Shown here piece after piece: positions 72 through 16,989 of a stretch of 64,000 nt of DNA (position 1 is its first letter; each line of letters starts with the position of its first letter). The translations under genes were made by a program, and so were the position numbers. The stretch is taken from positions 4,836,001 through 4,900,000 of the forward strand of contig NZ_CP011072.1 in the NCBI RefSeq assembly GCF_001190925.1, read 5' to 3'. Origin of the DNA: Azoarcus sp. CIB. GTDB taxonomy: Bacteria > Pseudomonadota > Gammaproteobacteria > Burkholderiales > Rhodocyclaceae. The notes under the pieces were generated by a model. It searched no databases and was not told where the DNA came from. It was given only the letters and a program-made list of their open reading frames with translations.

Positions 72-917
72 TCAGGGTCGCAAGGGACGAACCCGCGAGC
101 GCTGCTCCCCCAAGCCCGCGATAGTGAGCTGCATCGTCTGACCGGGCCGCAAGTGGCGCGACGGCGATTGCAGGAAGCCGCTGCCCGGCGGGGTGCCGGT
201 GAGGAGCACGTCGCCGGGGTGCAGCGTCATGTAGCGGCTGGCGCAGGCGACGAGTTCGGCGCAGCTGAAAAGCATGTCTGCGGTGTTCGAGGCCTGCATG
301 GTTCCGCCGTCGAGGGTGAGGCGGAGGTCCAGCGCCTGCGGGTCGGGCACTTCGTCGCGGGTGACGAGCCAGGGGCCGAGCGGGCAGAAGGTGTCGCAGC
401 TCTTGCCCTTGTCCCAGGTGGGGCCGCGATCGAACTGGAAGCCGCGCTCGGAGACGTCGTTGGCGATGCAGTAGCCGGCGACGTGCGCGAGCGCGCGGGC
501 GGCGGGGACGGCGCTGGCGCGGCGGCCGATCACCAGCGCGAGCTCCACTTCCCAGTCGCAGCGGGTGGCGCCCGGCGGCAGGCGCACGGCGTCGCGCGCG
601 CCGCACAGCGCGGACGGGGCTTTCAGGAACAGGATGGGCTCGTCGGGCAGGGTGTAGCCTGCCGCGACGTGCGCGCGGTAGTTGAGCCCGGCGGCGACGA
701 TCTTGCCCACGCCGGCGACCGGCACGCCCAGACGCGGGCGGCCGGGCACCGCGGGAAGGGTCCGCGGGTCGAGGCGGCGCAGCAAGGCGAGGCTACCGGG
801 GGCGAGCGTCGCAGATCCGATGTCCGGGACGTGCGCGGAGAGATCGCGCAGCACGCCGTCGGCGTCGATCAGCCCCGGGCGTTCGCGGCCGCGCGGGCCA
901 TAGCGGACGAGCTTCAC
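72..917 (-). CDS. Fumarylacetoacetate hydrolase (FAH) family protein
   Basis: 281 aa. FAH-family enzymes use a divalent metal to hydrolyse, decarboxylate or isomerise beta-keto acids and enols, often late in aromatic ring breakdown. The probable metal ligands are visible: Glu123 and Glu125 in WEVELALVIG and Asp154 in IANDVSER. The lid lysines lie near 170-172 and the family signature TGTPPGSG near residue 240. Length fits the single-domain bacterial family. It is the last gene of a minus-strand run, 16 bp after the SDR gene, so it probably acts on the product of that cluster rather than in a standard catechol pathway; no ring-cleavage genes are present. The substrate cannot be told from sequence. 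Confidence 0.88.
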   Translation of the reverse strand: MKLVRYGPRGRERPGLIDADGVLRDLSAHVPDIGSATLAPGSLALLRRLDPRTLPAVPGRPRLGVPVAGVGKIVAAGLNYRAHVAAGYTLPDEPILFLKAPSALCGARDAVRLPPGATRCDWEVELALVIGRRASAVPAARALAHVAGYCIANDVSERGFQFDRGPTWDKGKSCDTFCPLGPWLVTRDEVPDPQALDLRLTLDGGTMQASNTADMLFSCAELVACASRYMTLHPGDVLLTGTPPGSGFLQSPSRHLRPGQTMQLTIAGLGEQRSRVRPLRP

Positions 918-933
918 GCTTCTGCCATCTCCA

Positions 934-1788
934 TCACGCGGGCCAGGTGTGGCTGCCGCCGGCGTTCATCGCGAGGTTGCCTCCATCGACCGGCAGCAGT
1001 ACGCCATTCACGGCGCGGGCGGCGTCGGAGGCAAGGAAGATGGCCGAGCCGACGTAGTCCTCGGGATCGAGCAGGCGCCCCTGCGGCAGCCCGGCGAGGA
1101 TGCGCGGCAGGACGTGGTCGCGGAAGCGCGGGTTGTCGAGATGGCCGCGCAGTCCGGGCGTGAGGGTCTGCGCCGGGAGGATCGCGTTCACGCGGATGCC
1201 CGCCCCGGCGTATTCGACGGCGAGTTCGCGTGTCATCTGGTGCACCGCGGCCTTGGTGCAGCCGTAGGGCAGCGCGCCGCGCCCGAGCGCCGATTCCCCC
1301 GCGTTGGAACCGATGTTGATGATGCTGCCCTGCCCCGCCGGCAGCATGCGGCGCAGCGCGGCCTGGCAGCACAGGAAGTAGCCGGTGAGGTTCACGGCGA
1401 GCATGCGCTCCCAGTCGGCGGCGGCCAGTTCGTGCGGGCGCACGCGCGCGGGGAAGGCGAAGGGGACGTTGACGAGGATGTCGAGACGGCCGATGTCGTC
1501 GTCGATCGTAGCGAACAGCCCCTCGACGGCGGCGGAGTCGGCGATATCGACGACGCGCGCGAGCGGCGCGGGCCCGATCTCAGCGAGTTCGCGTGCGGTC
1601 TGCGCGAGGCCGTCGGCGTCGATGTCGGCGATCGCGACGCGGGCGCCGGCGCGCGCGAGGCCCAGCGCAAGGGCGTGACCGATGCCGCCGTTGGCGCCGG
1701 CGCCCGTGACGAGGGCGACGCGGCCGTCGAGGTCAAACCGCGGCGAGTTGGGCGGGAAGTCGCGCTGAGAGGTCGTCGGGGGGTTCAT
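934..1788 (-). CDS. Short-chain dehydrogenase/reductase (SDR)
   Basis: 284 aa classical SDR: NAD(P)-dependent oxidation of an alcohol or reduction of a ketone, cytoplasmic. The Rossmann glycine motif GAGANGGIG is at 29-37, an acidic residue after beta-2 (IADID, about 53-57) suggests NAD(H) preference, and the catalytic Ser161, Tyr175 and Lys179 (YGCTK) are present. Odd point: the usual NNAG stretch reads NVPF around 107-110, and the loop after it is proline-rich. The ATG chosen overlaps the end of the preceding phosphotransferase gene by 56 bp; no later in-frame ATG leaves the glycine motif intact, so the overlap is probably real and implies coupled translation. Substrate unknown. Confidence 0.88.
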   Translation of the reverse strand: MNPPTTSQRDFPPNSPRFDLDGRVALVTGAGANGGIGHALALGLARAGARVAIADIDADGLAQTARELAEIGPAPLARVVDIADSAAVEGLFATIDDDIGRLDILVNVPFAFPARVRPHELAAADWERMLAVNLTGYFLCCQAALRRMLPAGQGSIINIGSNAGESALGRGALPYGCTKAAVHQMTRELAVEYAGAGIRVNAILPAQTLTPGLRGHLDNPRFRDHVLPRILAGLPQGRLLDPEDYVGSAIFLASDAARAVNGVLLPVDGGNLAMNAGGSHTWPA

Positions 1789-4372
1789 TTGCAGGGTCTC
1801 CGGGAGCGGGTTCGAGTACGGCGATGCGACCGCTGGCGCCGTCGAGGACGATGCGCGCGCCGTCGGCGATCAGGCGCGTCGCGTCGGGCAGCGCGATCGC
1901 CGGGATGCCGGCTTCGCGCGCCTGGCAGGCGCTGTGGGCGAGGAGCCCGCCGACTTCGACGACGAGCCCCGCGACGATGCGGAAGAGCGGCGTGACGCCG
2001 AGGTTGGCGGCGCGCAGGACGAGGATCTCGTCGCCGCGCCAGCCCTCGGCCGGCACTGGGTCGCCGGGGGCGAACACGCGTGCGACGCCGCAGACCTTGC
2101 CGGGGGACAGCGGTTCGCCGCTCCAGGCACTCCCCTCCGCCCCGTCGCTAGCACGCGCCGTCGGCACGCCGATGGCGTCGAGGCGCGCGCCGAACACGAC
2201 GGCCGGGACGCAGTGCAGGCGCGCGGCGAGACGTGCCATCGCGTGCTCGGCGGCGCGGCGCTCGGCGCGGCGGCGCAGCGCTGCGGGGTCGCGCAACGCG
2301 GCAGGCAGTTCGCGCGTGTGGAGATGGAAGATCAGCGCCTCGGGCCAGTCGAGATGCGCGGCAAGGTGCAGCGCGGCGTGGCGGATCAGCGCATGGACGG
2401 CGGTGTAGTGGTGCTTGATCGTCTCGCGCAGTGGCAGGAAGTGCTGCGCGAAGGCGAGCGCCTCGAAGAGCGCCGCGCGCGCGGCATCGTCCACGCCGGC
2501 AGCGGCGAGGCGTTCCCCGAGTTCCGCCTCGGCCGCGCGGCGGGCGGCCTGCTGGCGCGCGAATTCGGCCGCCGGCCGGCGGCCGCTGGTGCGCAGGTTC
2601 GCGAGCAGTTCGTCGAGGCGAGCGGGATCTTCGGCGAGCCGCGGCTCGGCGAGTTCGAGTTCGTTGTCGGCTCCGTGGCCGTAGGCGGCGAGGTAATCGG
2701 CACGGCTACGGCGCCTCTCTGCGACCTCCTCCAGCCACAGCGCCTGGCGCGTGATGTGGCTGCCGGGCAGGCCGGACAGCAGGCGCGCGCACACGGCTTC
2801 GCTGTCCGATCCGAGCAGGGCTTCGAGCGTGCGGCGAACCTCGGCCGCGAAGTGGAAGCCGAGCCGGGCGGCGATGACGAATTCGACACAGGGGCCGGTG
2901 CGCAGGAAGCGCACGAGATCCGACACGGCGGCGACGACCCGGCAAGGCTCGGTCGACGCGACGGCTTGCTCGAGCGCCGCCGGCACGCCGAGGCGTGGCA
3001 CGACCTGCGATTCGTAGCGCGCGAGGTAGGCGCGTGCCGCCGCGCGCAGGCCGCGCTCGAAACGCTCCCGCACTGCGGCGGCGGGAGCATCGAGGGGAAG
3101 CCGGCCGTACAGGCGCACTTCCGGATAGTTCGCGAGCGAGGGGTCGGCTACGACGCGGTCGAGGTAGTCGTCCACCGGCGGCTCCGCGCCGTCGCCGAAA
3201 GTCGCGGCGTCAACTTCGACATTGAAGCAGAGTTGCCCGGCGACCAGCTCGTACAGGTGATCGACGCAGCGCGGGTCGAAGCGGTAGCCGAGGCGCCGGC
3301 GCCCGGTCACGATCGCGCCGCGACGCCCGGCGAAGATGTCGCGGAACAGGCCGAAACTCATCGCGGTCGGCGTCGGCAGCAGCTCGCCGACGTTGCCGTT
3401 GCTAAGCACGAGCTGGCTGCCGTGCAGCACACCGCGCCGGCGCAGGTCGGCGAACTTGCGCGCGAGGCGCCGCCGCTCGCCGGCGAGGTAGTTTTCCAGC
3501 CCTGCGCCGCCTGCCGTGCTCGCGGCGACGAGCGGGCGCGCCTGCAGCAGCCACACGCCGCACAGGTCGACGGCGAACTCGACATCCTGCGGGCCGCCGA
3601 AGAAGGCTTCGGCGCGCAGCGCGAGCAGTGCGACCTCACGCGACTCGGCGGGCGTCAGGCAGGCGACGCGCGCGCGTTGCGGACGCACCGGGTGTGGACC
3701 GTCGGCTGCAAGCGCCTCGCGCTTGTGGCCGATGCGCTTGCGCAGCAGGCGGCCGGCGTGGGACAGGACGAAGCTGTCGCCGACGTGCCGCCCCGCGGCG
3801 AGCGGTTCCGCCAGCCCCCAGACGGCATCGACGTGCACCTCGCGGCGCCTGGTGTCGAGCGGCGCGCGCGTATAGGCGATACCAGCGGCGACCGCGGGGA
3901 CGAGGCGTTGCACGAGGATCGCCAGCGCCGCATCGGCATGCCCCAGCCGCGTGCGGTACTCGGCCGCGGCCGGTTCGGCCCACGAGGCGATGCAGCGTTC
4001 CAGCGCGGCGAGCAGCGCCGCCTCGCCGTGCACGCCGAGTTCGGTGGCGTACACGCCGGCATAGCTCGCACCCTCGCCGTCCTCCTCGATCGCGGAGCTG
4101 CGCACCGCGACGCGCCCGCCGAGCGCGCGATAGGCCGCCAGCAGCGCAACGCACACCGCTTCGCGGTCCGCCCCGCCCTCGCGCCACGCCGCGACGGCTG
4201 CCGCGGTGACGCAGAAACCGGGACTCACCGGGAAGCCCGCCGCGAGCAGAAGGCCCTGGCGCAACGCCTTATTGCCCACCGCGCGGGCGTCCGCCGGCGT
4301 GAGCGCGGCGAGGTCGCGGATCCAGTCCGACGACACCGGCGCGCTCCCGGCCGCGCCCTCCGCGGCTGTCAC
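1733..4372 (-). CDS. ATP- and PEP-utilising-enzyme-type phosphotransferase (rifampicin phosphotransferase-like layout)
   Basis: 879 aa from a GTG start whose bases form a GTGA overlap with the stop of the preceding U32 gene. A longer open frame continues upstream, but its first 112 residues are arginine-rich and antisense-like, so I reject them. The N-terminal part is the PPDK/PEP-synthase ATP-binding domain, with VRSSAIEEDG at about 90-99 followed by SYAGVYAT. The C-terminal part is the swivelling phosphohistidine domain, GGLLAHSACQAREAGIPA, with the likely phosphorylated His near 813. The PEP-binding TIM barrel is absent. ATP domain, unique middle, then His domain is the layout of rifampicin phosphotransferase, which moves the beta-phosphate of ATP to a small molecule; phenylphosphate synthase of Thauera splits similar parts over subunits. 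The acceptor is unknown; drug inactivation is possible, but the operon suggests a biosynthetic or catabolic step. Confidence 0.82.
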   Translation of the reverse strand: MTAAEGAAGSAPVSSDWIRDLAALTPADARAVGNKALRQGLLLAAGFPVSPGFCVTAAAVAAWREGGADREAVCVALLAAYRALGGRVAVRSSAIEEDGEGASYAGVYATELGVHGEAALLAALERCIASWAEPAAAEYRTRLGHADAALAILVQRLVPAVAAGIAYTRAPLDTRRREVHVDAVWGLAEPLAAGRHVGDSFVLSHAGRLLRKRIGHKREALAADGPHPVRPQRARVACLTPAESREVALLALRAEAFFGGPQDVEFAVDLCGVWLLQARPLVAASTAGGAGLENYLAGERRRLARKFADLRRRGVLHGSQLVLSNGNVGELLPTPTAMSFGLFRDIFAGRRGAIVTGRRRLGYRFDPRCVDHLYELVAGQLCFNVEVDAATFGDGAEPPVDDYLDRVVADPSLANYPEVRLYGRLPLDAPAAAVRERFERGLRAAARAYLARYESQVVPRLGVPAALEQAVASTEPCRVVAAVSDLVRFLRTGPCVEFVIAARLGFHFAAEVRRTLEALLGSDSEAVCARLLSGLPGSHITRQALWLEEVAERRRSRADYLAAYGHGADNELELAEPRLAEDPARLDELLANLRTSGRRPAAEFARQQAARRAAEAELGERLAAAGVDDAARAALFEALAFAQHFLPLRETIKHHYTAVHALIRHAALHLAAHLDWPEALIFHLHTRELPAALRDPAALRRRAERRAAEHAMARLAARLHCVPAVVFGARLDAIGVPTARASDGAEGSAWSGEPLSPGKVCGVARVFAPGDPVPAEGWRGDEILVLRAANLGVTPLFRIVAGLVVEVGGLLAHSACQAREAGIPAIALPDATRLIADGARIVLDGASGRIAVLEPAPGDPANEPPDDLSARLPAQLAAV

Positions 4373-5349
4373 GCGGCGACCCCGGCGCGGATCGCGCGGC
4401 CCGCCCGTTCCGCCCCGCGGATACGGGAGTCGTCGCGGTTGTCGCGCTCGCCGCTCCAGCGGTCCTTGAGTTCCAGCCATTCCGGCGCGAAGCCTTCGAT
4501 GCGTTCGCCACGCAGCGACGCGTCGATCACGCGCCGATAGAAGCCAACGATATCCGCGACGAGCGCTGCGGTGCGCTCGCGGCCGGGAATCTTGAAGCGT
4601 TCGACGCCCATCGCGACGTATTCGGGCACTTCCCACAGCAGCAGCTCGGGGCTGCTCTTCAGGCGCGGCGAGTCGGGATGAAGGCGATCGCCCGCGGTGA
4701 GCGACCACTCGCCGCGACAGATACGGTAGCAGCTGCCGCCGCGCGCCGCCGAGCCGAGGTAGAGATCCTTGTCGTCGTCGCCGCGCAGGTGCTTGACGTG
4801 GAAGTAGCTGCTCGAATAGCAGCGCCCCGGGCAGATGCGGCCGCGATGCGGGTTCTGGAACAGGAAGGCTTCGAGCTTCATCGGGCTCGCGGCACGGATC
4901 TGCGCGGCCTCGGCGACGCCCCAGCGGTAGGGCAGCACGACGTAGTCCGCTCCCAGCTCGTCATAGAAGCGCACGTCCTCGACGTTGAACACGCCGGCGG
5001 TGACGCTGACGTGGATGTCCAGCGCGGGATGCGCGCGGCGCACCAAGGGGATCAGGCCGGGGTCGCACGCCATCACGCCGCTCACGCCGATCTTCGCGAA
5101 GCTCGCGACGCGGTCGAGGAACAGGCCGACTTCGTCGGGCGCGGGCATCACGTTGATCGCGACGCGCACGTCCTTGCCGTCGCGCGCGGCCTCGGCGACC
5201 AACTCGGCGATCGCGCCGTCGTCAAGCTCGTCGGTGGCCGGACGGCGGCTCCAGCCGCGCGGCCCGACGTAGACGGAGTCGGCGCCGCGCGCGAGCGACG
5301 CGAAGGCCATTTCGAGGCTGCCACCGGGGGCCATCAGGATCGGCATCAT
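4369..5349 (-). CDS. U32-family protein, UbiU-like (paralogue C)
   Basis: 326 aa. Annotation pipelines call this peptidase family U32, but studied relatives (UbiU, UbiV, RlhA, TrhP) take part in hydroxylation, several with an Fe-S cluster. The TIM-barrel start MAPGGSLEMAFASLARGAD and the VYVGPRGWSRR segment match the two other UbiU-like paralogues in this cluster. Four cysteines form two CX3C pairs, Cys173/Cys177 (CPGRC) and Cys207/Cys211 (CYRIC), a plausible [4Fe-4S] site. Two adjacent ATGs exist; the second is better placed after GAGGTGA. It starts 5 bp after the NMT1-like gene and ends overlapping the phosphotransferase start. The C-terminal 30 residues are Arg/Asp-rich and not shared with the paralogues. 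Confidence 0.85.
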   Translation of the reverse strand: MMPILMAPGGSLEMAFASLARGADSVYVGPRGWSRRPATDELDDGAIAELVAEAARDGKDVRVAINVMPAPDEVGLFLDRVASFAKIGVSGVMACDPGLIPLVRRAHPALDIHVSVTAGVFNVEDVRFYDELGADYVVLPYRWGVAEAAQIRAASPMKLEAFLFQNPHRGRICPGRCYSSSYFHVKHLRGDDDKDLYLGSAARGGSCYRICRGEWSLTAGDRLHPDSPRLKSSPELLLWEVPEYVAMGVERFKIPGRERTAALVADIVGFYRRVIDASLRGERIEGFAPEWLELKDRWSGERDNRDDSRIRGAERAGRAIRAGVAA

Positions 5350-5354
5350 TCACC

Positions 5355-6284
5355 TCAGGGATGGAGACCGGCGGCGAGGAGGCCGGCCGGCAGTGCATGT
5401 CGGGGAGCGCCGGGCGGCGCCATCAGGTCGGCGAGTTCCTGCAGCCGCGCGGCCATCTGCGGCGCCCACGGAAGGCCGACGCGGGCGAGCCACTTGCGCC
5501 GCAGCACGGCGCCGGCCCAGCTGCCCGCCGGCACGCCGGCGACACGCGACCACAGGCCGGGATCGGCGCGCAGGCGATCCGCCGCGGCGGCGGCCGAGCG
5601 GGCGAAGCCCTGCAGCAGGGCGGGCGCCGAGCGCGCCAGCGCCTCGTGGCAGACGAAGAAGCTCGTCGGCACCTGGGGCCGCGGGACGGGAAGCGCGGCA
5701 AGCAGCGCGGCCAGGTCGCACACCTCGCGGAACGCACCGCCCGCGACGAGCGCGGGCACCTGGTGCCAGTACAGGAGGGCCGCGTCGAGCGCGCCGCCAC
5801 ACAGGGCGTCGTGCAGGTCGCTCTTCGAGCCGGCGGCGATGCAAGGCGACGCTTCAGCCGGGTCGAAGCCGTGGCGCAGCCGGCACGCGGCGCGCAGCAG
5901 CAGCCAGTTCTTGTCCTGCGCGTGGACGACGCCGATGCGCTTGCCCGGCAGGTCCGCGAGACCGCGCAGCGCGCTGCCCCGTCGCGCGACGAGGCCGCCG
6001 AAGATCGCGCCGTACGGGGCGGCCGCCACCAGCGGCAGGCCGGCGGCGCGATGACGCGCGAGCGACAGCCAGTCGGTGTCGATGAGATCGACCTCGCCGT
6101 CGATCAGCCGCGCCTCGGTCGCCTGACGCTCGCCGCGCATGCGGTCGTCGCCCAGCTGCAGCGCCAGGCGGTAGCCGTTGGCCTCGTCGAGGCCGCAGGC
6201 GACGATCGCGCGCATCAGCCAGGCGCCGCTGCCAGTGGCTTCGAAGGCCGCGCGCAGGGTCGGGAGGGCACTAACGGCGGACAT
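5355..6284 (-). CDS. NMT1/THI5-like (SsuA-type) binding-fold protein without signal peptide
   Basis: 309 aa with features of the periplasmic-binding-protein family of SsuA/ThiY/NMT1: an early RAAFEATGSGAWL strand-helix, the GEVDLIDTDWLSLARHR segment (about 63-79) and DLPGKRIGVVHAQDKNW (about 115-131). It has no N-terminal signal peptide: the start MSAVSALPTLRAA runs straight into the fold, after a good GGAGGG ribosome site. No ABC permease or ATPase gene is nearby. Binding-fold proteins lacking export signals can be cytoplasmic enzymes (THI5, MqnA, MqnD), so an enzymatic or carrier role inside the operon is as likely as transport. It lies between two U32 genes, after a palindromic repeat. Confidence 0.72.
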   Translation of the reverse strand: MSAVSALPTLRAAFEATGSGAWLMRAIVACGLDEANGYRLALQLGDDRMRGERQATEARLIDGEVDLIDTDWLSLARHRAAGLPLVAAAPYGAIFGGLVARRGSALRGLADLPGKRIGVVHAQDKNWLLLRAACRLRHGFDPAEASPCIAAGSKSDLHDALCGGALDAALLYWHQVPALVAGGAFREVCDLAALLAALPVPRPQVPTSFFVCHEALARSAPALLQGFARSAAAAADRLRADPGLWSRVAGVPAGSWAGAVLRRKWLARVGLPWAPQMAARLQELADLMAPPGAPRHALPAGLLAAGLHP

Positions 6285-6312
6285 CCAACCCTCCGCTGAG
6301 AGTGCCGTGCTC

Positions 6313-6424
6313 CGTAGGGCGGGAGGAGCCGCAGGCGGAATGTGCCAACTGCGCCGCCACGCGGCGGTTGGGCGGTGTCGGACGCGCCGGCTGGCGGGAT
6401 ACGCTGCGCTCCTGCCGCCCTACG
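6313..6424. repeat. Dispersed palindromic intergenic repeat, family 1 (copy 1)
   Basis: 112-bp element with complementary ends: CGTAGGGCGGGAGGAGC at the left and GCTCCTGCCGCCCTACG-like sequence at the right (ending CCTGCCGCCCTACG). The inner part contains GGCGGGATACGCTGCG. A second copy with nearly identical ends is at 26644-26740. It lies between the U32 gene that ends at 6446 and the NMT1-like gene, so it would fold as a large hairpin within the probable operon mRNA and might lower expression downstream or act as a processing site. Confidence 0.8.
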
Positions 6425-6445
6425 CGGTCCGCCTCGAAGGCTGGC

Positions 6446-7405
6446 TCAAGCCACATAATTCGCCGCCCGATCCATCAAGGTGTCGACGCGCTTCGCCTTC
6501 TCCCGCACCCAACGCCCGCGCAGCTCGGCGAGTTCCCCGGCGTGGTGATCGAGATCGCTCACGCCGGCGACGACCTCGTCGATCGCACGGCGGTAGAAGC
6601 GGACGAGGTCGCGGATCATGCCGACCGGCCGCTCGCGCCCCGACAGCTTGAAACAGGTGACGCCGGCGGCGACGAAGCCCGGCAGCTGCGCGAGCATCAG
6701 TCGCGCGTCGCGGCGCAGCTTGATCTCGACCGGGTCCGCCCCCGCCGCGCCGAATTCCCAGTTCGCCTGGCACACGCGGTAGCACTCCTTCGCGCCGCGG
6801 TTCGCGCTGCCGTGGAAGTCGCGGCTGCCCTCGACTTCCAGCCAGTCGCGAAAGCGCAGGTAGCTGCTCATGATGCATTTGCCGGGGCACAGCTTGCCGG
6901 TCTGCACCGTCTCGAAGAGGAAGGTCTCCAGCCCGATATCGCTCGCACGGCGCACGGCTTCGATCTCGGCGACGTCCCAGCGGTAGGGCAGGATGATCAC
7001 GTCGGCGCCGGCGTCGCGGTAGAAGGCCGCGTCGGCGAGGTTGCTGATGCCGCTGCCGATGCTCACGTGCAACACCGTGTCCGGGATCTCGCGGCGCAGC
7101 GCGCGCATCAGACCGACATCGGTGACGATGAAGCCGGACGCGCCGTCGGCCGCGTAGCGCACGGCCTTGTCGACGAAGCGGCCGAAGTCGTAGGGCGTCG
7201 GGAAGGTATTGAGCACCACGCGCAGTTCCGCGCCGCCCGCCCGCGCATAGGCGGCCGCCTCGCGGATCGCGTCGTCGCTCATCTCGGACTCGTAGGGGCG
7301 GCGCGAGAAGCCGAGCGGGCCGACGTAGATGATGTCGGCGCCCTCGTCGACCGCCGCGCGCGCCATCTCCAGCGAGCCAGCCGGGGCGAGCAGCTTTACC
7401 ATCAT
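6446..7405 (-). CDS. U32-family protein, UbiU-like (paralogue B)
   Basis: 319 aa, starting at an ATG that shares one base with the TGA of the UbiV-like gene (TGATG), a typical coupled start; the 18 residues of open frame further upstream are unlikely to be used. It begins MMVKLLAPAGSLEMARAAV, then IIYVGPLGFSRRP. The cysteines are Cys173/Cys177 (CPGKC) and Cys208/Cys212 (CYRVC), with spacing as in paralogues A and C. The KLSGRERP segment near 255 corresponds to KVPGRDR and KIPGRER of the other two. Family knowledge suggests Fe-S-dependent, oxygen-independent hydroxylation in partnership with a UbiV-like protein; the immediate coupling to the UbiV-like gene supports a heterodimer. Substrate unknown. 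Confidence 0.86.
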   Translation of the reverse strand: MMVKLLAPAGSLEMARAAVDEGADIIYVGPLGFSRRPYESEMSDDAIREAAAYARAGGAELRVVLNTFPTPYDFGRFVDKAVRYAADGASGFIVTDVGLMRALRREIPDTVLHVSIGSGISNLADAAFYRDAGADVIILPYRWDVAEIEAVRRASDIGLETFLFETVQTGKLCPGKCIMSSYLRFRDWLEVEGSRDFHGSANRGAKECYRVCQANWEFGAAGADPVEIKLRRDARLMLAQLPGFVAAGVTCFKLSGRERPVGMIRDLVRFYRRAIDEVVAGVSDLDHHAGELAELRGRWVREKAKRVDTLMDRAANYVA

Positions 7406-8349
7406 CAATTCCGCCCGATGTAGCGCTGGCCCGCGCCTTCGAAGTAATAGCCGTTGCACAGCCCTTCGCGCGCGAGGCCCGCGAGCGTGTCGAGCGCCGG
7501 CGCGAAATCGGGCGCCGCCTCGCCGGCGAAGGCCCGCGTCAGCGCGTCGCGGTAGATGCGCCCCACCGCCGCCGCGTAGCCCGGCGCCTCGCCCTTGTTA
7601 TGCACGTAGAAGTGCTTCAGGCCCATGTCTGCCAGCCGGCCGCCGTGCTCGACCATGCACAGGTCCTTGCCCGACAGCGTCATGCGGCCGGTGTCCTTCA
7701 GCGACCAGTCGGCACGGCTGCCGTCATCGCGGCCGCGCTTGAGCCAGTGTTCCTGCGTGCACTGATACGAACAGCTGCCGTCGCCGCATGCGCCCTCCGC
7801 GCCCTCCTCGGCGTGCTCGAGGATGAAGCAGGTCTCGGAGATCACCAGCGGGATCTTGCCGTGCACCGGCACCAGCACCTCGATGTCGGCGTGCTCGGCG
7901 ATGTAGCGCACCTCGTCGAGCGACAGCTCCGGATTCGGATACACGCGCGTGACGCCGAAGTCCTTGAGCACCTTCGCGGTCTCGTGCGTGTACAGGTTGC
8001 CGAACACGCCGAGGTGGATCGGCGCCGTGCAGCCGCGCTCGCGCAGCATGCGCAGCACGCCCAGGTTGTGCACCTCCAGCGCGTCGAAGGGCAGCTGGAG
8101 TGCGGTGTCGATGACGTCGCCGACCCATGCGAGGTCGTCGTTGCCCGGCACCGCGTACAGGCGCAGGTAGGCCTTCTGGCCGCGCGCATGCACGTGCTGC
8201 AGCCCCGCTTCGAGCAGCTCCGCATGCGAGCTGAAGTTGTTGGGATACTCGGGACAGGAGAAATCGCCGAGGTAGATCGCGTCGTAGGCCGAGAAATCGC
8301 CCTCGCGCAGTTCCTTGAGGTTGCCGACGTCGGTCGAGAGTTCGAACAT
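7405..8349 (-). CDS. U32-family protein, UbiV-like
   Basis: 314 aa, shorter and distinct from the three neighbouring U32 proteins. It begins MFELSTDVGNLKELREGD and has Cys32 in GDFSCPEYPNNF plus a downstream group Cys174, Cys188, Cys193 and Cys197. In E. coli UbiV the [4Fe-4S] ligands are Cys39, Cys180, Cys193 and Cys197, so Cys32, Cys174, Cys193 and Cys197 fit well, with CX3C spacing kept; Cys188 is extra. AAGGAG lies 8 bases before the ATG. Translation is coupled to the next UbiU-like gene. No ubiT (SCP2-like) gene is nearby, so a role in ubiquinone synthesis is not indicated; the protein probably partners one or more of the adjacent UbiU-like proteins. Confidence 0.84.
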   Translation of the reverse strand: MFELSTDVGNLKELREGDFSAYDAIYLGDFSCPEYPNNFSSHAELLEAGLQHVHARGQKAYLRLYAVPGNDDLAWVGDVIDTALQLPFDALEVHNLGVLRMLRERGCTAPIHLGVFGNLYTHETAKVLKDFGVTRVYPNPELSLDEVRYIAEHADIEVLVPVHGKIPLVISETCFILEHAEEGAEGACGDGSCSYQCTQEHWLKRGRDDGSRADWSLKDTGRMTLSGKDLCMVEHGGRLADMGLKHFYVHNKGEAPGYAAAVGRIYRDALTRAFAGEAAPDFAPALDTLAGLAREGLCNGYYFEGAGQRYIGRN

Positions 8350-8364
8350 GGTGTGTCTCCTTGC

Positions 8365-9357
8365 TTATTGGGTCACGGCCGCGGCGGCGGCGGAAACGCG
8401 TACGGATTCGTCGATCGCCTGGCGCAGCAGGCGGTTGTCGCGCTTGTTGCGCTCGGTCATCCAGCGCCCGCGCAGGATCTCGAGCTCCGTGGCGAACACC
8501 GAGAGGTCGGGGCGATCCGTTTCGAGGATGGCGTCGACCGCGCGCCGGTACACGCGCACGATGTCGCGCACCAGCACCGCCGAACGGTCGCGCCCGGGCA
8601 CCTTCAGGCAGTCGACACCGGCGGCGAGGTAGTCCGGCAGTTCCTCCAGCCACAGCGCCGGATTGGTCTTGATCGTCATCGGCATGCGGTAGTCGATGTC
8701 GTCGACGTTGAAGTTCCACTCCGTCTGGCACACGCGCAAGCAGTCGCCGCCGCGCGAGGCCGAGCCGAAGAAGTGGTCCTTGCCCTCGGTGTCGAGCCAG
8801 CGGCGGAAGCTGAAATAGCTGCTCATGTTGCATTTGCCGGGGCAGATCTTGCCGCCCGACGGCGTCTTGAACAGGAAGACCTCGATGCCGACCTTGCCCG
8901 CGCCCTTGATCTGGCGGATCTCCTCCACCGACAGGCGGTAGGGCAGCACGACGTAGTCCGCGCCGAGTTCCCGCAGGAAGCGCACGTCCTCGTAGTTGGT
9001 GATCCCGCAGCCGACGCTGGTATGCACGTTCACATGCGGCAGGCGCTCCTTCACCAACCGCATCGCGCCGAGGTCGCTGATCATGAAGCCCTGCGCGCCC
9101 CAGCCCGCGTAGCGCTCGACGCGCTCGACGAACATCGGCAGCTCGGTCGAACTCGGCAGCGTGTTCACGACCACGCGCACCTCCTTGCCGCGCGCCATCG
9201 CGTAGTCGATCGTGTGGCGGATCTCGTCGTCGTTGAGCTCGTCCTGCGCGCCGCGCCGGCTCCAGCCGACGACGCCGACGTACACCGCGTCCGCCCCTTC
9301 GTCGAGCACCGCCTTCGCCATCTCCAGCGTGCCGCCGGGGGCCATCATCATCACCAT
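8365..9357 (-). CDS. U32-family protein, UbiU-like (paralogue A)
   Basis: 330 aa. The ATG chosen is 8 bases after GGAG; a GTG two codons earlier sits too close to that site. It begins MVMMMAPGGTLEMAKAVL, then AVYVGVVGWSRRG, matching paralogues B and C. The cysteines are Cys172/Cys176 (CPGKC) and Cys206/Cys210 (CLRVC). It is the first U32 gene after the phosphatase/aminotransferase fusion, 13 bp away, and 15 bp before the UbiV-like gene. Family evidence points to Fe-S-dependent hydroxylation or related chemistry; peptidase activity is possible but has weaker support. Three diverged copies in one operon argue for successive or alternative steps on related substrates. Confidence 0.85.
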   Translation of the reverse strand: MVMMMAPGGTLEMAKAVLDEGADAVYVGVVGWSRRGAQDELNDDEIRHTIDYAMARGKEVRVVVNTLPSSTELPMFVERVERYAGWGAQGFMISDLGAMRLVKERLPHVNVHTSVGCGITNYEDVRFLRELGADYVVLPYRLSVEEIRQIKGAGKVGIEVFLFKTPSGGKICPGKCNMSSYFSFRRWLDTEGKDHFFGSASRGGDCLRVCQTEWNFNVDDIDYRMPMTIKTNPALWLEELPDYLAAGVDCLKVPGRDRSAVLVRDIVRVYRRAVDAILETDRPDLSVFATELEILRGRWMTERNKRDNRLLRQAIDESVRVSAAAAAVTQ

Positions 9358-9370
9358 CTTCACGTCTCCT

Positions 9371-10738
9371 TCAGGCCGGGATCGCTGCCCGGCATTCGTT
9401 GTCCTCGCGCAGCAGCTCACCCAGCACGGCGAGGAAGCGCGCGTTCTCGGCAGGCAGGCCGACGCTGACGCGGATGTGCTGCGGCAGTCCGTAACGGGCC
9501 ATGCACTTCACGGCGACGCCGCGCTCGGCCAGGCGCGCCAGCGCATCGCGCGGCGCTCGCAGCAGCACGAAATTCGCCGCGGAAGGCACGAAATCGACGC
9601 CGAGGCGCGCGAGGGCGCTCATCAGCACGTCGCGCTCGCGCGCATTCGCCGCGATGCTGTCGCGGCGGTGCCCTTCGTCCTGCAGCGCTGCAAGCGCAGC
9701 CGCCTGCGCGAGCGAGCCGAGGTGGTATTGCGGGCACAGCGCCGTCATGCGCTGCACGATCTCCGGAGGCGCATAGCCGTAGCCGATGCGCAAGCCCGCG
9801 AGCCCCTCGACCTTGGAGAGCGAACGCAGGACGAGCACGGGCGCCCCGTCGCGCAGGTCGGCGATACCGTCGATCAGTTCCTGGTCCATCGCATAGTCGC
9901 GATAGGCCTCGTCCAGCAGTAGCGCCGCGCCAGGGGGCAGCGCGTGGCGAAGACGCGTCCAGTCCGCCGGGGCCATCAGCGTTCCGGTCGGGTTATGGGG
10001 CGATGCAACGACGACCATCCGTGTCGCCGGCGTGATGCGTTCGCGGAAGGCGTCGAGGCTGTAGTCCGCGCCGTCGAGCGGCACGCGAACCACCCGCGCA
10101 CCGGTTCGATCCGCTGCGGAGCGATAGGCCGGAAAGGCCGGGTCGGGGATCAGCACCTCGCCGCCGGGGCCGACGAGGCTGCGCATCGCCAGATCGATCA
10201 GCTCGCACGCGCCATTGCCTATCAGCACGTGCGCCGACGACAGCCCCGCACGCCCGGCGAGCAAGGTGCGCAGCTTCGCCGCATCGACGGACGGATAGCG
10301 GTGCAGCTTCGCCAGCTCGCGCGTGATCGCGGCGCACGCCGCGGGCGAGGGTCCGAAGGGGTTTTCGTTGCCGGACAGATCGATGGCGGGCACAGCCGCC
10401 CCGGCGTAATGCGCGCGGATCGACGCGAGCAGCGCGGGATGGGGGTCCGCCTGGGGGCGGGCGGCGCGCACCCGGGTGAAGGCCTCGTCGAGGGGCAGGC
10501 CGAGGTATTCGTGCAGGAAGCACGCGGCCAGCGCCGGCGAGCGCGAGATTCCCTGCTCGCAATGCATCAGCACCCGGTGTCCGGCGGCGACGCGGCCGGC
10601 GAGGAACGCGGCGGCCTCACGGATCGTCGCGGCGGGCAGCGCCACACGGTCGGCCACCGCCCGTCCCAGCTGCAGCGCCGCACCGTCGGCGGCGTCGGCA
10701 CGGCTGCCCACGGCCAGCTGCGGCATCACGAAATCCAT
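9371..10738 (-). CDS. Fusion: dual-specificity-phosphatase-like domain plus HisC-like PLP aminotransferase
   Basis: 455 aa. Residues 1 to about 112 form a compact phosphatase-like domain with the P-loop HCEQGISRSP: catalytic Cys60 and Arg66 of the CX5R motif are intact. From about 118 a full class I/II aminotransferase of the histidinol-phosphate type begins (DLSGNENPFGPSP), with ASPHNPTG (Asn249), DEAYRDY (Asp276, Tyr279) and SLSKVEGLAGLRIGYG, where Lys309 should bind PLP. HisC acts just before histidinol-phosphate phosphatase in histidine synthesis, so the fusion could couple transamination with dephosphorylation, but no his genes lie nearby. It is the first gene of the cluster and probably sets its input. 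No frameshift is seen. Confidence 0.85.
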   Translation of the reverse strand: MDFVMPQLAVGSRADAADGAALQLGRAVADRVALPAATIREAAAFLAGRVAAGHRVLMHCEQGISRSPALAACFLHEYLGLPLDEAFTRVRAARPQADPHPALLASIRAHYAGAAVPAIDLSGNENPFGPSPAACAAITRELAKLHRYPSVDAAKLRTLLAGRAGLSSAHVLIGNGACELIDLAMRSLVGPGGEVLIPDPAFPAYRSAADRTGARVVRVPLDGADYSLDAFRERITPATRMVVVASPHNPTGTLMAPADWTRLRHALPPGAALLLDEAYRDYAMDQELIDGIADLRDGAPVLVLRSLSKVEGLAGLRIGYGYAPPEIVQRMTALCPQYHLGSLAQAAALAALQDEGHRRDSIAANARERDVLMSALARLGVDFVPSAANFVLLRAPRDALARLAERGVAVKCMARYGLPQHIRVSVGLPAENARFLAVLGELLREDNECRAAIPA

Positions 10739-10924: not shown

Positions 10925-12118
10925 TCAGCGCATGCAGCCGCCGGCGCGGCGGCACCACGCGACGAAGCCGATGCCGCCGAGCGTCAGGAAACCCGCCATG
11001 CCCGCCGCCAGCGTCAACGGCGAATGCCACAGCAGCGGCGCGAAGATGCCGGCGATCGTCGAATTGATGCCGACCTGCAGGAAGCTCTGGCAGCTCGACG
11101 CCAGCCCGCGGTGCGAGGGGAACAGCTCCAGCGCCAGCAACGTCATGCTCGGCATCGACAGGGCCATGCCGAAGGTGTACAGCACGATCGGCAACACCGA
11201 CCACGGCAGGCCGGGCGGCAGCAGCGTTGCGACCAGCAGGTTGGCGAGCGCCGCGGTCGCCATGATCGTCATGCCGACCGCGACCGTGCGGCGCACGTGC
11301 CAGCGCCCGGCAACCCGCTCCGACAGCGCCGAGCCCGCGCTCATGCCGACCACCGCGGGCACGAACAGCCAGCCGAACTCCTGCGGGCCGAGTCCCAGGT
11401 GCTGCATCAGGAAGGCCGGCGCGGACAGCACGTAGAGGAAGAAACCGTTGAAGTTGAAGGCTGCCGCCGCACTGAGCAGCACGAAGGCGCCGCTGCCCAG
11501 CACCCGCCGATAGGCGCGGCCGAGCAGCACCGGATGCAGCGGATGGCGATGCCCCGGCGGCAGGGTCTCGGGCAGGAAGCGCCAGGTGAGGACGGCCAGC
11601 ACGGCGCCCAAGAAGGCGAGGAAGAAGAAGATCGCGCGCCAGCCCGCCGCGGCCAGCAGCAGGCCGCCGATGATGGGCGCGATCGCCGGGGCGACGCCGA
11701 AGATCAGCATCACGCGCGACATCAGCCGCTGCGCATGCGCGCCGTCGAACAGATCGCGGATCACCGCGCGCCCGACCACCATGCCCGCACCGCCGACCAT
11801 GCCCTGCAGCGCGCGACCCACCCACAGCCACTCGATCGACGGCGCCAGCGCGCACACCAGCGAGGCCAGCGCGAACAGCACGCTACCGGCGATGAGCACG
11901 TGCCGGCGCCCGAAGTGGTCGGCGAGCGCACCATGCCACAACACCATGAAGGCGAAGGTCGCCATGTAGGCGGTGAGCGTCTGCTGGATTTGCAGCGGCG
12001 AGGCGCCGAGCTCCGCCCCCATCGCGCCGAACGCAGGCAGGTAGGTGTCGATCGAAAACGGCCCGATGGCAGCGAGCGCCGCGAGGACAAACGCTAGCCA
12101 GGGCGAGGTGGCGGGCAT
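10925..12118 (-). CDS. Bcr/CflA-type drug-resistance MFS transporter
   Basis: 397 aa, about 12 hydrophobic segments. The first helix reads LAFVLAALAAIGPFSIDTYL, and the DTYLPAFGAM stretch is typical of the Bcr/CflA (DHA1) group. The loop 2-3 motif appears as GALADHFGRRHVL and the loop 4-5 segment as VGRALQGMVGGAG. Such inner-membrane proteins use the proton gradient to export small molecules. It is on the same strand as the U32 cluster, 186 bp upstream of it, so it may export the cluster's product or an inhibitor, but an independent role is equally possible. Confidence 0.88.
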   Translation of the reverse strand: MPATSPWLAFVLAALAAIGPFSIDTYLPAFGAMGAELGASPLQIQQTLTAYMATFAFMVLWHGALADHFGRRHVLIAGSVLFALASLVCALAPSIEWLWVGRALQGMVGGAGMVVGRAVIRDLFDGAHAQRLMSRVMLIFGVAPAIAPIIGGLLLAAAGWRAIFFFLAFLGAVLAVLTWRFLPETLPPGHRHPLHPVLLGRAYRRVLGSGAFVLLSAAAAFNFNGFFLYVLSAPAFLMQHLGLGPQEFGWLFVPAVVGMSAGSALSERVAGRWHVRRTVAVGMTIMATAALANLLVATLLPPGLPWSVLPIVLYTFGMALSMPSMTLLALELFPSHRGLASSCQSFLQVGINSTIAGIFAPLLWHSPLTLAAGMAGFLTLGGIGFVAWCRRAGGCMR

Positions 12119-14214: not shown

Positions 14215-14322
14215 TTCGACGGCCGAGCGCTCTGCTGCATGTGCACAAAAACGCCCGAAAAACCCTTTCTGAACGCCTTTTTCTCACATACAAACAGTTA
14301 CTTACGACAACAACCGAAGGAC

Positions 14323-14339
14323 TTGGCACGCCGCGTGCA
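14323..14339 (+). promoter_or_regulatory. Sigma-54 (-24/-12) promoter of the torF-like/glnK/amtB operon
   Basis: TTGGCACGCCGCGTGCA has the invariant GG and GC elements separated by ten bases. It ends 48 bp before the first start codon. The rest of the 329-bp gap (14059-14387) holds the NtrC-type sites and an AT-rich stretch near 14280-14310, and no gene that I can support. Confidence 0.75.
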
Positions 14340-14387
14340 AAGGAGGACTTGCCAGCAATCAAACACCAACCATCAAGGAGCAACATC

Positions 14388-15131
14388 ATGCACAAGCGCA
14401 TCCTCGCCCTTGCCGTCGCCGCAGCCCTTCCGCTGATCGCCTCCGGCACGGCCGCCGCCGGCGACAGCCCGATCGCCGCGAACGTCGCCCTCGTGTCCGA
14501 TTATGCCTACCGCGGCATCAGCCAGACCGACGAGAAGCCGGCGCTGCAGGGCGGTTTCGATTATGCGCATGCGAGCGGCCTGTACGTCGGCGTGTGGGGG
14601 TCGAACGTGTCGTGGCTGAGCGACCTTGAGCGCGGCACCGGCGAAAACTCCGGCAACAGCCTCGAACTGGACGTCTACGGCGGCTACAAGGGCACGATCG
14701 GCGACATCGGCTACGACGTCGGCCTGCTGCAGTACGTCTATCCGGGCGAGTTCGACTCGGGCTGGCGCAACACCATCGGCCTGAAGCACCCGAACACGCA
14801 GGAAGGCTACCTCGGCCTGTCGTGGCAGTTCCTGTCCTTCAAGTACTCGAACTCCTTCACCAACCTGTTCGGCGCGCCGGACTCCAAGGGCAGCCAGTAC
14901 TTCGACCTGTCGGCCGCCTACGAGGTGATCCCGGGCACGACGCTGAACGCCCACTACGGCCACCAGATGATCGCCGGCCCGGTCGAGTCCTACTCCGACT
15001 GGAAGGTCGGCGTCAGCCAAGCCGTCGCGGGCGTGACGCTGGGCCTGCACTACGTCGACACCAACATGAAGGACAAGAGCGACTTCGACGCCGACGGCCG
15101 CTACGTCGTGAGCGTCAGCAAGACCTTCTGA
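14388..15131 (+). CDS. TorF-family putative outer-membrane porin (NlmA-like)
   Basis: 247 aa from the ATG 7 bases after AAGGAG; open frame upstream of it overlaps the promoter and is not coding. A signal peptide covers about residues 1-24 (HKRILALAVAAALPLIASG, then TAAAG). The mature start NVALVSDYAYRGISQTDEKP and the alternating aromatic strands ending VSVSKTF, with a terminal Phe, are typical of the TIGR02001/TorF family of predicted beta-barrels. It precedes glnK and amtB by 50 bp; in Herbaspirillum a similar gene, nlmA, heads the NtrC-controlled nlmA-glnK-amtB operon. A role in nitrogen-compound entry is inferred. Confidence 0.85.
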   Translation: MHKRILALAVAAALPLIASGTAAAGDSPIAANVALVSDYAYRGISQTDEKPALQGGFDYAHASGLYVGVWGSNVSWLSDLERGTGENSGNSLELDVYGGYKGTIGDIGYDVGLLQYVYPGEFDSGWRNTIGLKHPNTQEGYLGLSWQFLSFKYSNSFTNLFGAPDSKGSQYFDLSAAYEVIPGTTLNAHYGHQMIAGPVESYSDWKVGVSQAVAGVTLGLHYVDTNMKDKSDFDADGRYVVSVSKTF

Positions 15132-15169
15132 GCCTGCAACGCCGCGGGGCTCCGGCCCCGCAAGACTGA

Positions 15170-15520
<351 letters not shown>

Positions 15521-15531
15521 GGGAGAACACC

Positions 15532-16989
15532 ATGAAAAAACTGTTTGCCATACTGTTTGCGGTGCTCGCGCTCGGCTTCGCCGGGCTCGCCAGCGCCGAG
15601 GATGCCCCGGCTGCGGCCGAGGCCGTCACTGCGATCGCCGACGCGGCTGCTGCCGCCCCCGCGGCCGCGGCGCCCGCCCCCACGGTCAACAAGGGCGACA
15701 CCGCGTGGATGCTGACCTCCACCGCGCTCGTCGCCTTCATGGTGATCCCGGGCCTCGCGCTGTTCTACGGCGGCCTGGTGCGCTCGAAGAACATGCTATC
15801 GGTGCTGATGCAGGTCTTCGTGATCTTCTCGCTGATGATCGTGCTGTGGTTCGTCTACGGCTACAGCCTCGCCTTCACCGAGGGCAACGCGTTCATCGGC
15901 GGCTTGTCGAAGGCCTTCCTCAGCGGGGTGACGGTCGATTCGATGGCCGCGACCTTCAGCAAGGGCGTCGCGATCCCCGAGTTCGCCTACATCATCTTCC
16001 AGGCGACCTTCGCGGCGATCACCCCGGCGCTGATCGTCGGAGCCTTCGCCGAGCGCATGAAGTTCTCCGCGGTGCTGCTGTTCATGGTGCTGTGGTTCAC
16101 CTTCTCCTACCTGCCGATGGCCCACATGGTGTGGTACTGGGCGGGCCCGGATGCCTACATCGACGCCGCTGCGGGTGAAGCCGCCGCCGCGACCGCGGGC
16201 TTCCTGTTCCAGAAGGGCGCGCTCGACTTCGCCGGCGGTACCGTGGTGCACATCAACGCCGCCGTCGCCGGCCTGGTCGGTGCCTTCATGATCGGCAAGC
16301 GCATCGGCTACGGCCGCGAATCGATGGCCCCGCACTCGCTGACGCTGACGATGGTCGGTGCCTCGATGCTGTGGATCGGCTGGTTCGGCTTCAACGCCGG
16401 CTCCAACCTCGAAGCCAACGGCCTCACCGCGCTGGCCTTCCTCAACACGATGGTCGCGGCCGGCATGGCGGCGATGTCGTGGATGACCGCGGAATGGCTG
16501 ATGAAGGGCAAGCCCTCACTGCTGGGTGCGGCTTCGGGTGCGGTGTCGGGTCTGGTTGCGATCACCCCGGCCTGCGGCTGGGTCGGCCCGATGGGCGCGA
16601 TGGTGATCGGCCTGCTGTCAGGCGTGATCTGCCTGTGGGGCGTGAATGGCCTCAAGCGCATGCTCGGCGCCGACGACGCGCTCGACGTGTTCGGCGTGCA
16701 TGGCGTGGGCGGCATCCTCGGCGCGATCCTCACCGGTGTGTTCGCCAACCCGGACCTCGGCGGCGTCGGCGTGTATGACTACGTCGCCAACGCGGTGGCC
16801 CCGTTCTCGACCTCCGCGCAGGTCACCAGCCAGGTCTGGGGCGTGGTCGTCGCGATCCTGTGGTCGGGCGTCGTGTCCGTGGTCGCCTACAAGATCGTCG
16901 ATGTGCTGATCGGCCTGCGCGTGCCGGAAGAAGAAGAGCGCGAAGGCCTCGACATCACCGCCCACGGCGAGACCGCCTACCACGTCTGA
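15532..16989 (+). CDS. amtB: Ammonium transporter AmtB
   Basis: 485 aa. It has a cleavable signal peptide (about 1-22, ending GLASA) and an Ala/Pro-rich linker to about residue 53, then eleven predicted membrane helices starting TAWMLTSTALVAFMVIPGLA. The ammonium-transporter signature DFAGGTVVHINAAVAGLVGA is at about 233-252, with the first pore histidine in it; the second is in FGVHGVGGILGAI. The C-terminal tail LRVPEEEEREGLDITAHGE binds GlnK in homologues. It forms one operon with glnK and ends before a strong terminator. Confidence 0.96.
   Translation: MKKLFAILFAVLALGFAGLASAEDAPAAAEAVTAIADAAAAAPAAAAPAPTVNKGDTAWMLTSTALVAFMVIPGLALFYGGLVRSKNMLSVLMQVFVIFSLMIVLWFVYGYSLAFTEGNAFIGGLSKAFLSGVTVDSMAATFSKGVAIPEFAYIIFQATFAAITPALIVGAFAERMKFSAVLLFMVLWFTFSYLPMAHMVWYWAGPDAYIDAAAGEAAAATAGFLFQKGALDFAGGTVVHINAAVAGLVGAFMIGKRIGYGRESMAPHSLTLTMVGASMLWIGWFGFNAGSNLEANGLTALAFLNTMVAAGMAAMSWMTAEWLMKGKPSLLGAASGAVSGLVAITPACGWVGPMGAMVIGLLSGVICLWGVNGLKRMLGADDALDVFGVHGVGGILGAILTGVFANPDLGGVGVYDYVANAVAPFSTSAQVTSQVWGVVVAILWSGVVSVVAYKIVDVLIGLRVPEEEEREGLDITAHGETAYHV

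Follow-up and report, generated by a model that had tools for sequence, protein, structure and literature searches.

Introduction

U32 oxidases carry out hydroxylations that need no O2 and for which prephenate is known or suspected to donate the oxygen (PMC11574389), and UbiV, a member of the UbiU-UbiV-UbiT system, bears the cysteine motif CXnCX12CX3C (PMC6747719). In this study, we analyzed a cluster of nine minus-strand genes, built around four U32 proteins (U32a to U32d), in a stretch of 64,000 nucleotides of Azoarcus sp. CIB (contig NZ_CP011072.1, assembly GCF_001190925.1). This stretch, referred to as the window, covers bases 4836001-4900000 of a genome that is assembled as a single contig and has 5257030 bases. 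The cluster resembles UbiU-UbiV-UbiT in that several U32 proteins with sets of four cysteines are encoded together and in its proposed quinone-type target, and the UbiV motif is kept in part of the U32b orthologues. It differs in that U32a, U32c and U32d form a clade of their own and share CX3CX28-30CX3C in place of CX6CX16CX38C, in that no SCP2/UbiT protein is among the nine, and in U32 scores far under the UbiU and UbiV cut-offs.

Further related systems concern pyrroloquinoline quinone (PQQ). In the synthesis of PQQ, the PqqC step needs O2 and PqqB probably acts as a hydroxylase, and no PQQ is made by Klebsiella pneumoniae and Pseudomonas aeruginosa in anaerobic growth (PMC12423496). The gene set pqqAED-puuD-serC-pyrD was proposed as an O2-independent PQQ set in denitrifiers, with Azoarcus DN11 named (PMC12423496). 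With pqqABCDE the cluster has in common an SDR or FAH gene co-located with the pqq operon in three genera and a PqqT-type protein, but no Pqq enzyme model is matched by any of the nine proteins (within the best 25 NCBIfam matches in the case of SDR and aminotransferase), and the chemistry is different. The denitrifier set likewise has an aminotransferase in its proposed O2-independent finish of PQQ, while section 2.9 of PMC12423496 names no U32 protein, phosphotransferase or phosphatase for it. Among single proteins, PqqT is the nearest sequence relative in the Protein Data Bank (PDB) of the NMT1-fold protein P0005 and shares a K-x-W motif with it; unlike the periplasmic PqqT, P0005 is predicted to lack a signal peptide, and its pocket motif is changed. 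The rifampin phosphotransferase Rph and PigC/RedH have the same region order as the PPDK-like protein P0003, which nevertheless stays under the cut-off of every NCBIfam model listed for it. Searches of the open-licence literature listed no paper that describes a U32 cluster of this composition or connects U32 proteins with PQQ metabolism.

An earlier, sequence-only reading of the window had proposed that the cluster makes or breaks down a small molecule by O2-independent hydroxylations, with no pathway that could be named. Our own proposal, put forward tentatively, is that the nine genes form one pathway on the PQQ line, most likely the completion of PQQ without O2.

Results and discussion

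The nine genes are one conserved unit

The nine genes are one conserved unit and are inherited together. Of the 17 genomes of the genus, 10 have a U32b orthologue (E<1e-180), and each of the seven named Aromatoleum/Azoarcus loci holds all nine genes. A peptide-pattern scan of genome contigs yielded 17 loci, some of the Aromatoleum loci being the same stretches as in the sampled genus genomes. The cluster was found in nine distant beta- and gammaproteobacterial genomes, namely Rhodocyclaceae, Sideroxydans, Ferrovum (with two cluster copies), two Proteobacteria metagenome-assembled genomes (MAGs), Neptunomonas, Motiliproteus, a Gammaproteobacteria MAG and Thiodictyon; eight of these nine are MAGs of unstated completeness. 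The order aminotransferase-U32a-U32b-U32c-NMT1-U32d-PPDK is unbroken in six of them, one locus (L038) stopping within the PPDK-like gene. For Neptunomonas, Thiodictyon and the Gammaproteobacteria MAG, the order was observed on contig pieces, and those of the last showed no aminotransferase gene. Orthologues from the distant genera are 39-83% identical to the window's proteins (38-54% for FAH).

In 44 other genomes sampled from the family and order, the best U32b match was only E=8e-25, and in a class sample of 369 genomes a U32b match (E<=1e-60) was found only in the window's own genome and in none of the 368 others, with at most six candidates scored per genome. As five or six candidates per genome were scored in all class-wide scans (U32b, SDR, pqqE), their zeros are not absolute. 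The recurrence of the gene order at such identities in distant genera, with no U32b match in these 368 genomes, is more than chance would produce. Conserved co-occurrence in related genomes, the absence of which would have refuted the sequence-only reading, was found. Plasmid carriage was rejected, as no plasmid gave a tblastn match to the cluster at 1e-30.

Three links to PQQ

The first link is P0005. Searched alone against the PDB, it matched 9b1u with E=2.2e-22, the only other matches at 0.01 being 9ooz and 9b1v, which is PqqT with PQQ and Gd (PMC12828617); its profile matched 9b1u with 1e-38. K125 and W127 of P0005 (in DKNW) are invariant in 12 sequences, and K-x-W is kept in 13 of 13 sequences when eight cluster-type and five periplasmic forms are taken together. 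By the offset of Lys141 in the genome's own periplasmic protein, an inferred mapping, the DKNW lysine probably corresponds to PqqT Lys142, the residue engineered in work described in PMC12828617. The pocket motif is GAPPL in the five periplasmic forms and mostly GSKT or GSKS in the cluster form, in which Lys154 is invariant. The N-terminal peak of hydropathy over 12 residues was 0.22-1.69 in eight cluster-type proteins (1.69 in P0005) against 2.46-2.81 in five PqqT-like ones; the N-terminus of P0005 is not strongly hydrophobic, in agreement with the signal-less protein of the sequence-only reading, and Pfam placed no ABC permease or ATPase genes among the nine. A second NMT1 relative in the same genome has a signal-like N-terminus, ABC genes alongside and a 9b1u match of E=2.6e-68. 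This periplasmic PqqT relative is encoded among genes of the PQQ alcohol dehydrogenase system, beside those for ExaC, PQQ_ABC_ATP, PQQ_ABC_repeats and PQQ_ABC_bind, all over their model cut-offs, and is 32% identical to P0005 over 241 residues. THI5-type pyrimidine synthesis as a role for the NMT1 protein was rejected (only E=0.002-0.004).

A PqqT-type protein without a signal peptide would also suit a cytosolic pathway that repairs, recycles or turns over PQQ, acting for instance on PQQ-amino acid adducts, and so would the aminotransferase, the FAH-type enzyme and the PQQ users without a pqqE match. Such a role offers no ready place for four U32 proteins of the hydroxylase type and a phosphotransferase, and we regard it as very improbable.

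The second link is the SDR P0002. Of 11 cluster-bearing genomes tested, 10 have an SDR of this type (the exception being G435); none was found in the seven genus genomes without the cluster or, at 1e-70, in the 368 other class genomes. In Motiliproteus, the SDR gene follows pqqB-C-D-E and an S9 peptidase gene, which it overlaps by 4 bp; the Neptunomonas SDR gene likewise stands behind an S9 peptidase gene and pqqE, the latter truncated where the contig ends; the position behind pqqE and the peptidase gene is that of genomes G433 and G434. Both proteins are 60-68% identical to P0002 and are the sole orthologue found in the respective draft genome. No SDR gene was found in the 4.3 kb read behind the PPDK-like gene of Motiliproteus, and in Thiodictyon the SDR gene is located elsewhere.

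The third link is a pqq operon near the cluster. The Sideroxydans MAG carries on one strand pqqB-C-D-E followed by genes for an MFS protein, a histidine kinase, a response regulator and FAH, and on the opposite strand genes for a tautomerase, the SDR and the rest of the cluster, with the pqq operon 4.3 kb from the cluster's FAH gene. The PqqT-like NMT1 protein, the SDR gene behind pqqE and the nearby pqq operon point the pathway to PQQ. Of the sequence-only reading, one conserved unit with U32 proteins, phosphotransferase, aminotransferase-phosphatase, SDR and FAH is retained; its statement that no pathway can be named is not borne out as it stands.

The distribution of pqq genes was compared with that of the cluster. 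Within the genus, a pqqE match (1e-30) is present in 10 of 10 genomes with the cluster and in 5 of 7 without it; six of the nine distant cluster genomes have one, against 50 of the 368 class genomes other than the window's own (Fisher p=5e-4, relatedness ignored). This gives 16 of 19 cluster genomes at 1e-30, with G430 recognized via a fragment below the cut-off. A match to the PQQ-dehydrogenase model TIGR03075 (E<=1e-60) was found in 19 of 19, in G433 only through fragments below the cut-off.

An alternative is that the cluster makes a specialised metabolite or signal unrelated to PQQ by O2-independent hydroxylation, which comes close to the sequence-only reading and would make the PQQ links coincidental. 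The patchy distribution, the MFS transporter gene in the genus, the histidine kinase gene in four and the response regulator gene in three distant genomes, and the lack of a physical link to pqq in the window's genome would all suit it. Three separate links (PqqT relative, SDR behind pqqE, nearby pqq operon) and PQQ-dehydrogenase matches in every cluster genome speak against coincidence, and we consider this alternative unlikely.

Second pqqDE loci with Urate_ox_N and Aminotran_5 genes, which resemble the set proposed for denitrifiers in PMC12423496, were seen in four genomes of the genus, G010, G012, G014 and G015 (L085, L086, L087, L088), those of G010 and G012 also with a PyrD-like gene below the model cut-offs. 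Among the 17 genus genomes, the U32 cluster stands alone in eight and the second pqqDE set alone in two, while two genomes hold both and five neither, a split that is no more than suggestive of two unrelated gene sets serving one need.

The four U32 proteins

A tree of 48 rows was calculated from eight loci plus the window, using only the first 420 residues of RlhA and, in two TrhP rows, only the last 460-470. U32a, U32c and U32d each formed one clade and jointly one clade (100/99), and U32b formed a separate clade (100/99) that joins UbiV over long branches flagged as unsafe by the program. The alignments of the U32, NMT1, aminotransferase and PPDK-like proteins took L031, L036 and L037 from the seven Aromatoleum/Azoarcus loci, and L047 was left out.

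Invariant sets of four cysteines were found in all four proteins: C193/C197/C227/C231 (P0008 numbering) in 12 U32a sequences, C32/C174/C193/C197 in 13 U32b sequences, C191/C195/C226/C230 (P0006 numbering) in 13 U32c sequences and C173/C177/C207/C211 in 11 U32d sequences. With C138 and C271 in U32a, C231 and C298 in U32b and C95 in U32d, the invariant cysteines number six, six, four and five in U32a to U32d. The U32b spacing is C-X141-C-X12 to 23-C-X3-C, the X12 form of which, present in part of the orthologues, equals the UbiV motif. In direct alignments, C32 and C174 of U32b fall on C39 and C180 of UbiV, with the CX3C pair of the window's protein five residues further on, and C193, C197 and C231 of U32a fall on C169, C176 and C232 of UbiU.

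The UbiU model gave 110.1 bits for P0004, 112.2 for P0006, 50.2 for P0007 and 130.8 for P0008, against an NCBIfam equivalog cut-off of 440; the UbiV model gave 56.3 for P0007 and 27.2 for P0008 (cut-off 275) and the TrhP model 94.5-122.9 for the U32 proteins (cut-off 534), so that none passes. By model score, U32a and U32c are nearest to UbiU, as the sequence-only reading had it for three of the proteins; the third, U32d, scores 111.0 for TrhP against 110.1 for UbiU. The division into three UbiU-like proteins and one UbiV-like protein holds only loosely, and U32b owes its UbiV label to the cysteine pattern and to a long-branch join in the tree. The four U32 proteins are of the hydroxylase type and probably Fe-S proteins.

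Canonical anaerobic ubiquinone synthesis was rejected as the role of the cluster because the genome has separate UbiU and UbiV proteins that pass their models; its own TrhP passes as well. A UbiU-type match outside the cluster, judged by score and size, is present in nine of nine distant genomes (in G428 cut by the contig end) and was confirmed by models in G434 and G436, the only two tested; in seven of the nine a UbiV-type match lies beside it. An orphan U32 protein of about 348 amino acids (L004; G000:C1:3309136-3309876) lies on a very long branch and has no NCBIfam model match at 1e-60.

Phosphotransferase, phosphatase, aminotransferase and FAH enzyme

In P0003, ATP-binding, middle and phosphohistidine regions follow each other in the Rph/PigC order, as judged by Pfam, NCBIfam and PDB relatives, and His813 is invariant in nine sequences. 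The protein reached 199.8 of 999, 200.5 of 1300 and 208.9 of 1350 bits with the Rph/PigC/RedH models and passes none of them. In Pfam at 0.001, only PPDK_N and PEP-utilizers were matched, and no C-terminal phosphoenolpyruvate (PEP)/pyruvate-binding domain of PEP synthase.

Six fused orthologues and three separate DSP proteins share the phosphatase motif HCX5R with the fusion protein P0009, and the pyridoxal phosphate (PLP) lysine K309 of P0009 is invariant in 11 sequences; the aminotransferase part reached 268.2 bits with the HisC model TIGR01141, below the cut-off of 276.55. In Neptunomonas, Motiliproteus and Thiodictyon, the DSP phosphatase is a separate gene, and in two MAGs the aminotransferase gene lacks the DSP part and a Y_phosphatase3 gene adjoins the SDR gene. 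This swapping between fused DSP, separate DSP and Y_phosphatase3 suggests that the dephosphorylation step matters; going by the enzyme family, the substrate may be an aryl phosphate.

The FAH gene adjoins the SDR gene in the genus, is one gene away in the Rhodocyclaceae MAG and is on the opposite strand in the Sideroxydans and Ferrovum MAGs. In Neptunomonas and Motiliproteus, a 38-39% identical FAH is encoded between phosphatase and aminotransferase, and none was seen in L041/L042. A small tautomerase gene was observed between the SDR and FAH genes in two betaproteobacterial MAGs (L039 17131-17520; L065 8047-8433).

FAH, SDR and tautomerase could also serve to degrade an aromatic compound for growth without O2; Aromatoleum lives on aromatics, pathways of this kind typically include FAH and tautomerase, and phenol phosphorylation is known from phenol degradation. 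Pfam assigned none of the nine genes to a CoA ligase, a ring reductase or a ring-cleavage enzyme, and the cluster is also present in the Ferrovum and Sideroxydans MAGs, whose lineages are iron-oxidising autotrophs. We hold a degradative role to be most improbable.

A proposed O2-independent route to a quinone cofactor

The cluster may encode an O2-independent route to a quinone cofactor, either PQQ or a new PQQ-like compound, which we suggest with reserve. In this route, (a) the PPDK-like enzyme would phosphorylate a phenol hydroxyl, which would then be masked as an aryl phosphate; (b) U32b would pair with U32a, U32c and U32d, each with a [4Fe-4S] cluster, and the three pairings would hydroxylate a tyrosine-derived ring in turn with an organic oxygen donor, perhaps prephenate; (c) the HisC-like domain would work on the alpha-amino-acid part; (d) the PTP-type phosphatase would take off the aryl phosphate and thereby unmask the phenol; (e) the SDR and the FAH enzyme, together with the tautomerase in two genomes, would oxidise and isomerise; and (f) the PqqT-like protein would keep the quinone product or an intermediate in the cytosol. 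The phenol as substrate, the U32 pairings and the identity and order of the steps are all inferred. By analogy, the cluster would most likely stand in for the steps at which PqqB and PqqC use O2, in parallel to the role of UbiUVT in ubiquinone synthesis.

Several observations weigh against completion of PQQ as the function. Regarding pqq genes, no pqqE match at 1e-30 was obtained in three cluster genomes (G428, G431, G432; all records are MAGs), and pqqE and PQQ dehydrogenases are also common in the cluster-negative genomes of the genus (five of seven each). All six operons read upstream of pqqE (G000, G429, G430, G434, G435, G436) hold pqqB and pqqC, so that the cluster is not the sole route. 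Regarding linkage, pqqE lies 3.4 Mb away from the cluster in the window's genome. The SDR gene is behind pqqE in only two of the nine distant genomes, and the pqq operon is near the cluster in one. Motiliproteus and Neptunomonas group as sisters in the U32 tree, so that the SDR-pqqE linkage may be one event, and the Neptunomonas contig stops inside the PPDK-like gene, leaving the stretch behind it unseen. Regarding the proteins, U32b, called UbiV-like in the sequence-only reading, scores higher with TrhP (101.7) than with UbiV (56.3), PQQ chemistry as known has no use for a phosphotransferase, a phosphatase, an aminotransferase or FAH, and half of the enzymes lack an assigned step.

Regarding control by O2, no FNR-type box (TTGAT-N4-ATCAA, at most two mismatches) was found within 400 bp upstream of the window's first gene and MFS gene, nor in the same interval before the first gene of the seven Aromatoleum/Azoarcus loci. 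The scan, controlled by simple base shuffles, also found no box in L038-L042; one box with two mismatches is present in each of L043 and L044, and L045 has two with one mismatch. The genome's own ubiU showed one box with one mismatch, but the Escherichia coli ubiU control lacked one, which marks the scan as insensitive.

A new cofactor, derived from PQQ or similar to it, would explain the extra enzymes and the changed pocket as well. Such a product could be PQQ that is further hydroxylated and aminated, or a PQQ-like compound made from aromatic amino-acid precursors without PqqA/PqqE. It would account for there being more catalytic genes than PQQ completion requires, for the exchange of GAPPL for mostly GSKT/GSKS with an invariant Lys154, and for the three cluster genomes that have a PQQ-type dehydrogenase and no pqqE match. 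Its product is not known, and PQQ itself explains the linkage to normal pqq operons equally, which makes this main rival rather doubtful to us.

Layout and neighbourhood of the cluster

All nine frames are open and intact, with a GC content at third codon positions of 0.86-0.95, and the protein families assigned in the sequence-only reading were recovered in the searches (Table 1). Orthologue starts suggest that U32c begins at 7405 (319 amino acids) and U32a at 9357 (330 amino acids). The overlaps GTGA (4369-4372) and TGATG (7403-7407) are real. The spacing of 4-16 bp or overlap described earlier was seen at seven of the eight junctions, as overlap or 5-16 bp; the eighth, between the NMT1 and U32c genes, is a gap of 161 bp (6285-6445). 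This gap is filled by a 161 bp repeat (GTAGGGCGG...CCGCCCTAC type), which has similar copies at 26615-26740 and near the genome's own pqq operon (L058) and partial ones in L031 and L034. It looks like an inserted intergenic element, because no match was found in L032, L033 and L035-L037.

Table 1. Genes of the cluster in the window, listed from 10738 to 72, and the adjoining transporter gene
Gene product	Position	Strand	Assignment
Fusion of DSP-type phosphatase and HisC/CobD-like PLP aminotransferase (P0009), first gene	9371..10738	-	Pfam DSPc + Aminotran_1_2
U32a, UbiU-like (P0008)	8365..9357; longest frame from 9420	-	Peptidase_U32
U32b, UbiV-type cysteine pattern (P0007)	7405..8349	-	Peptidase_U32
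U32c, UbiU-like (P0006)	6446..7405; longest frame from 7459	-	Peptidase_U32
NMT1-fold protein, predicted signal-less, PqqT relative (P0005)	5355..6284	-	NMT1; nearest structure 9b1u
U32d, UbiU/TrhP-like (P0004)	4369..5349	-	Peptidase_U32
PPDK-like phosphohistidine-type protein, Rph/PigC-like layout (P0003)	1733..4372	-	PPDK_N ... PEP-utilizers (Pfam, NCBIfam, PDB relatives)
SDR oxidoreductase (P0002)	934..1788	-	SDR; link to pqq operon
FAH-family enzyme (P0001)	72..917	-	FAA_hydrolase
MFS transporter, possible exporter, uncertain member	10925..12118	-	Pfam MFS_1

The upstream gene, an exporter gene in the sequence-only reading, encodes an MFS transporter and lies 186 bp from the fusion gene. 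It is kept within the genus only, being beside the cluster in eight of the eight other genus loci searched and without a match in the ten distant cluster loci searched. In four distant genomes the cluster has a histidine kinase gene as its neighbour, accompanied in three of them by a LuxR-type response regulator gene (L039, L040, L041, L042, L047, L060). The kinase of L042 resembles UhpB, and the neighbouring kinase is possibly the cluster's regulator.

In the genus, some 3.5 kb separate the cluster from Gcw_chp-GlnK-AmtB genes on its upstream side (14241-16989 in the window), and an AmtB gene also adjoins the cluster in the Rhodocyclaceae MAG (L065 5298-6518). The cluster-bearing genomes looked like the diazotrophic Aromatoleum group (PMC7825797). 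A link to nitrogen fixation was rejected as not strict, with nifD and cluster together in nine of the 17 genus genomes, the cluster only in one, nif only in two and neither in five; four of the nine distant cluster genomes have a nifD match (three over the cut-off). In the Thiodictyon MAG (L051), the PPDK-like gene is followed on the same strand by a radical SAM gene and then ubiU, and a gene for a nitroreductase (BluB-like)-CobT fusion lies upstream of a Ferrovum cluster (L040 5551-7383).

Implications

Denitrifiers with PQQ enzymes exist, and the cluster is a concrete and deletable candidate for making PQQ without O2. If the proposal is true, the reach of U32 oxidases would extend beyond ubiquinone and RNA to a soluble redox cofactor, and one UbiV-type protein would have three distinct partners. 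The cluster would then also provide new material on the U32 family, the mechanism of which is not yet known (PMC11574389).

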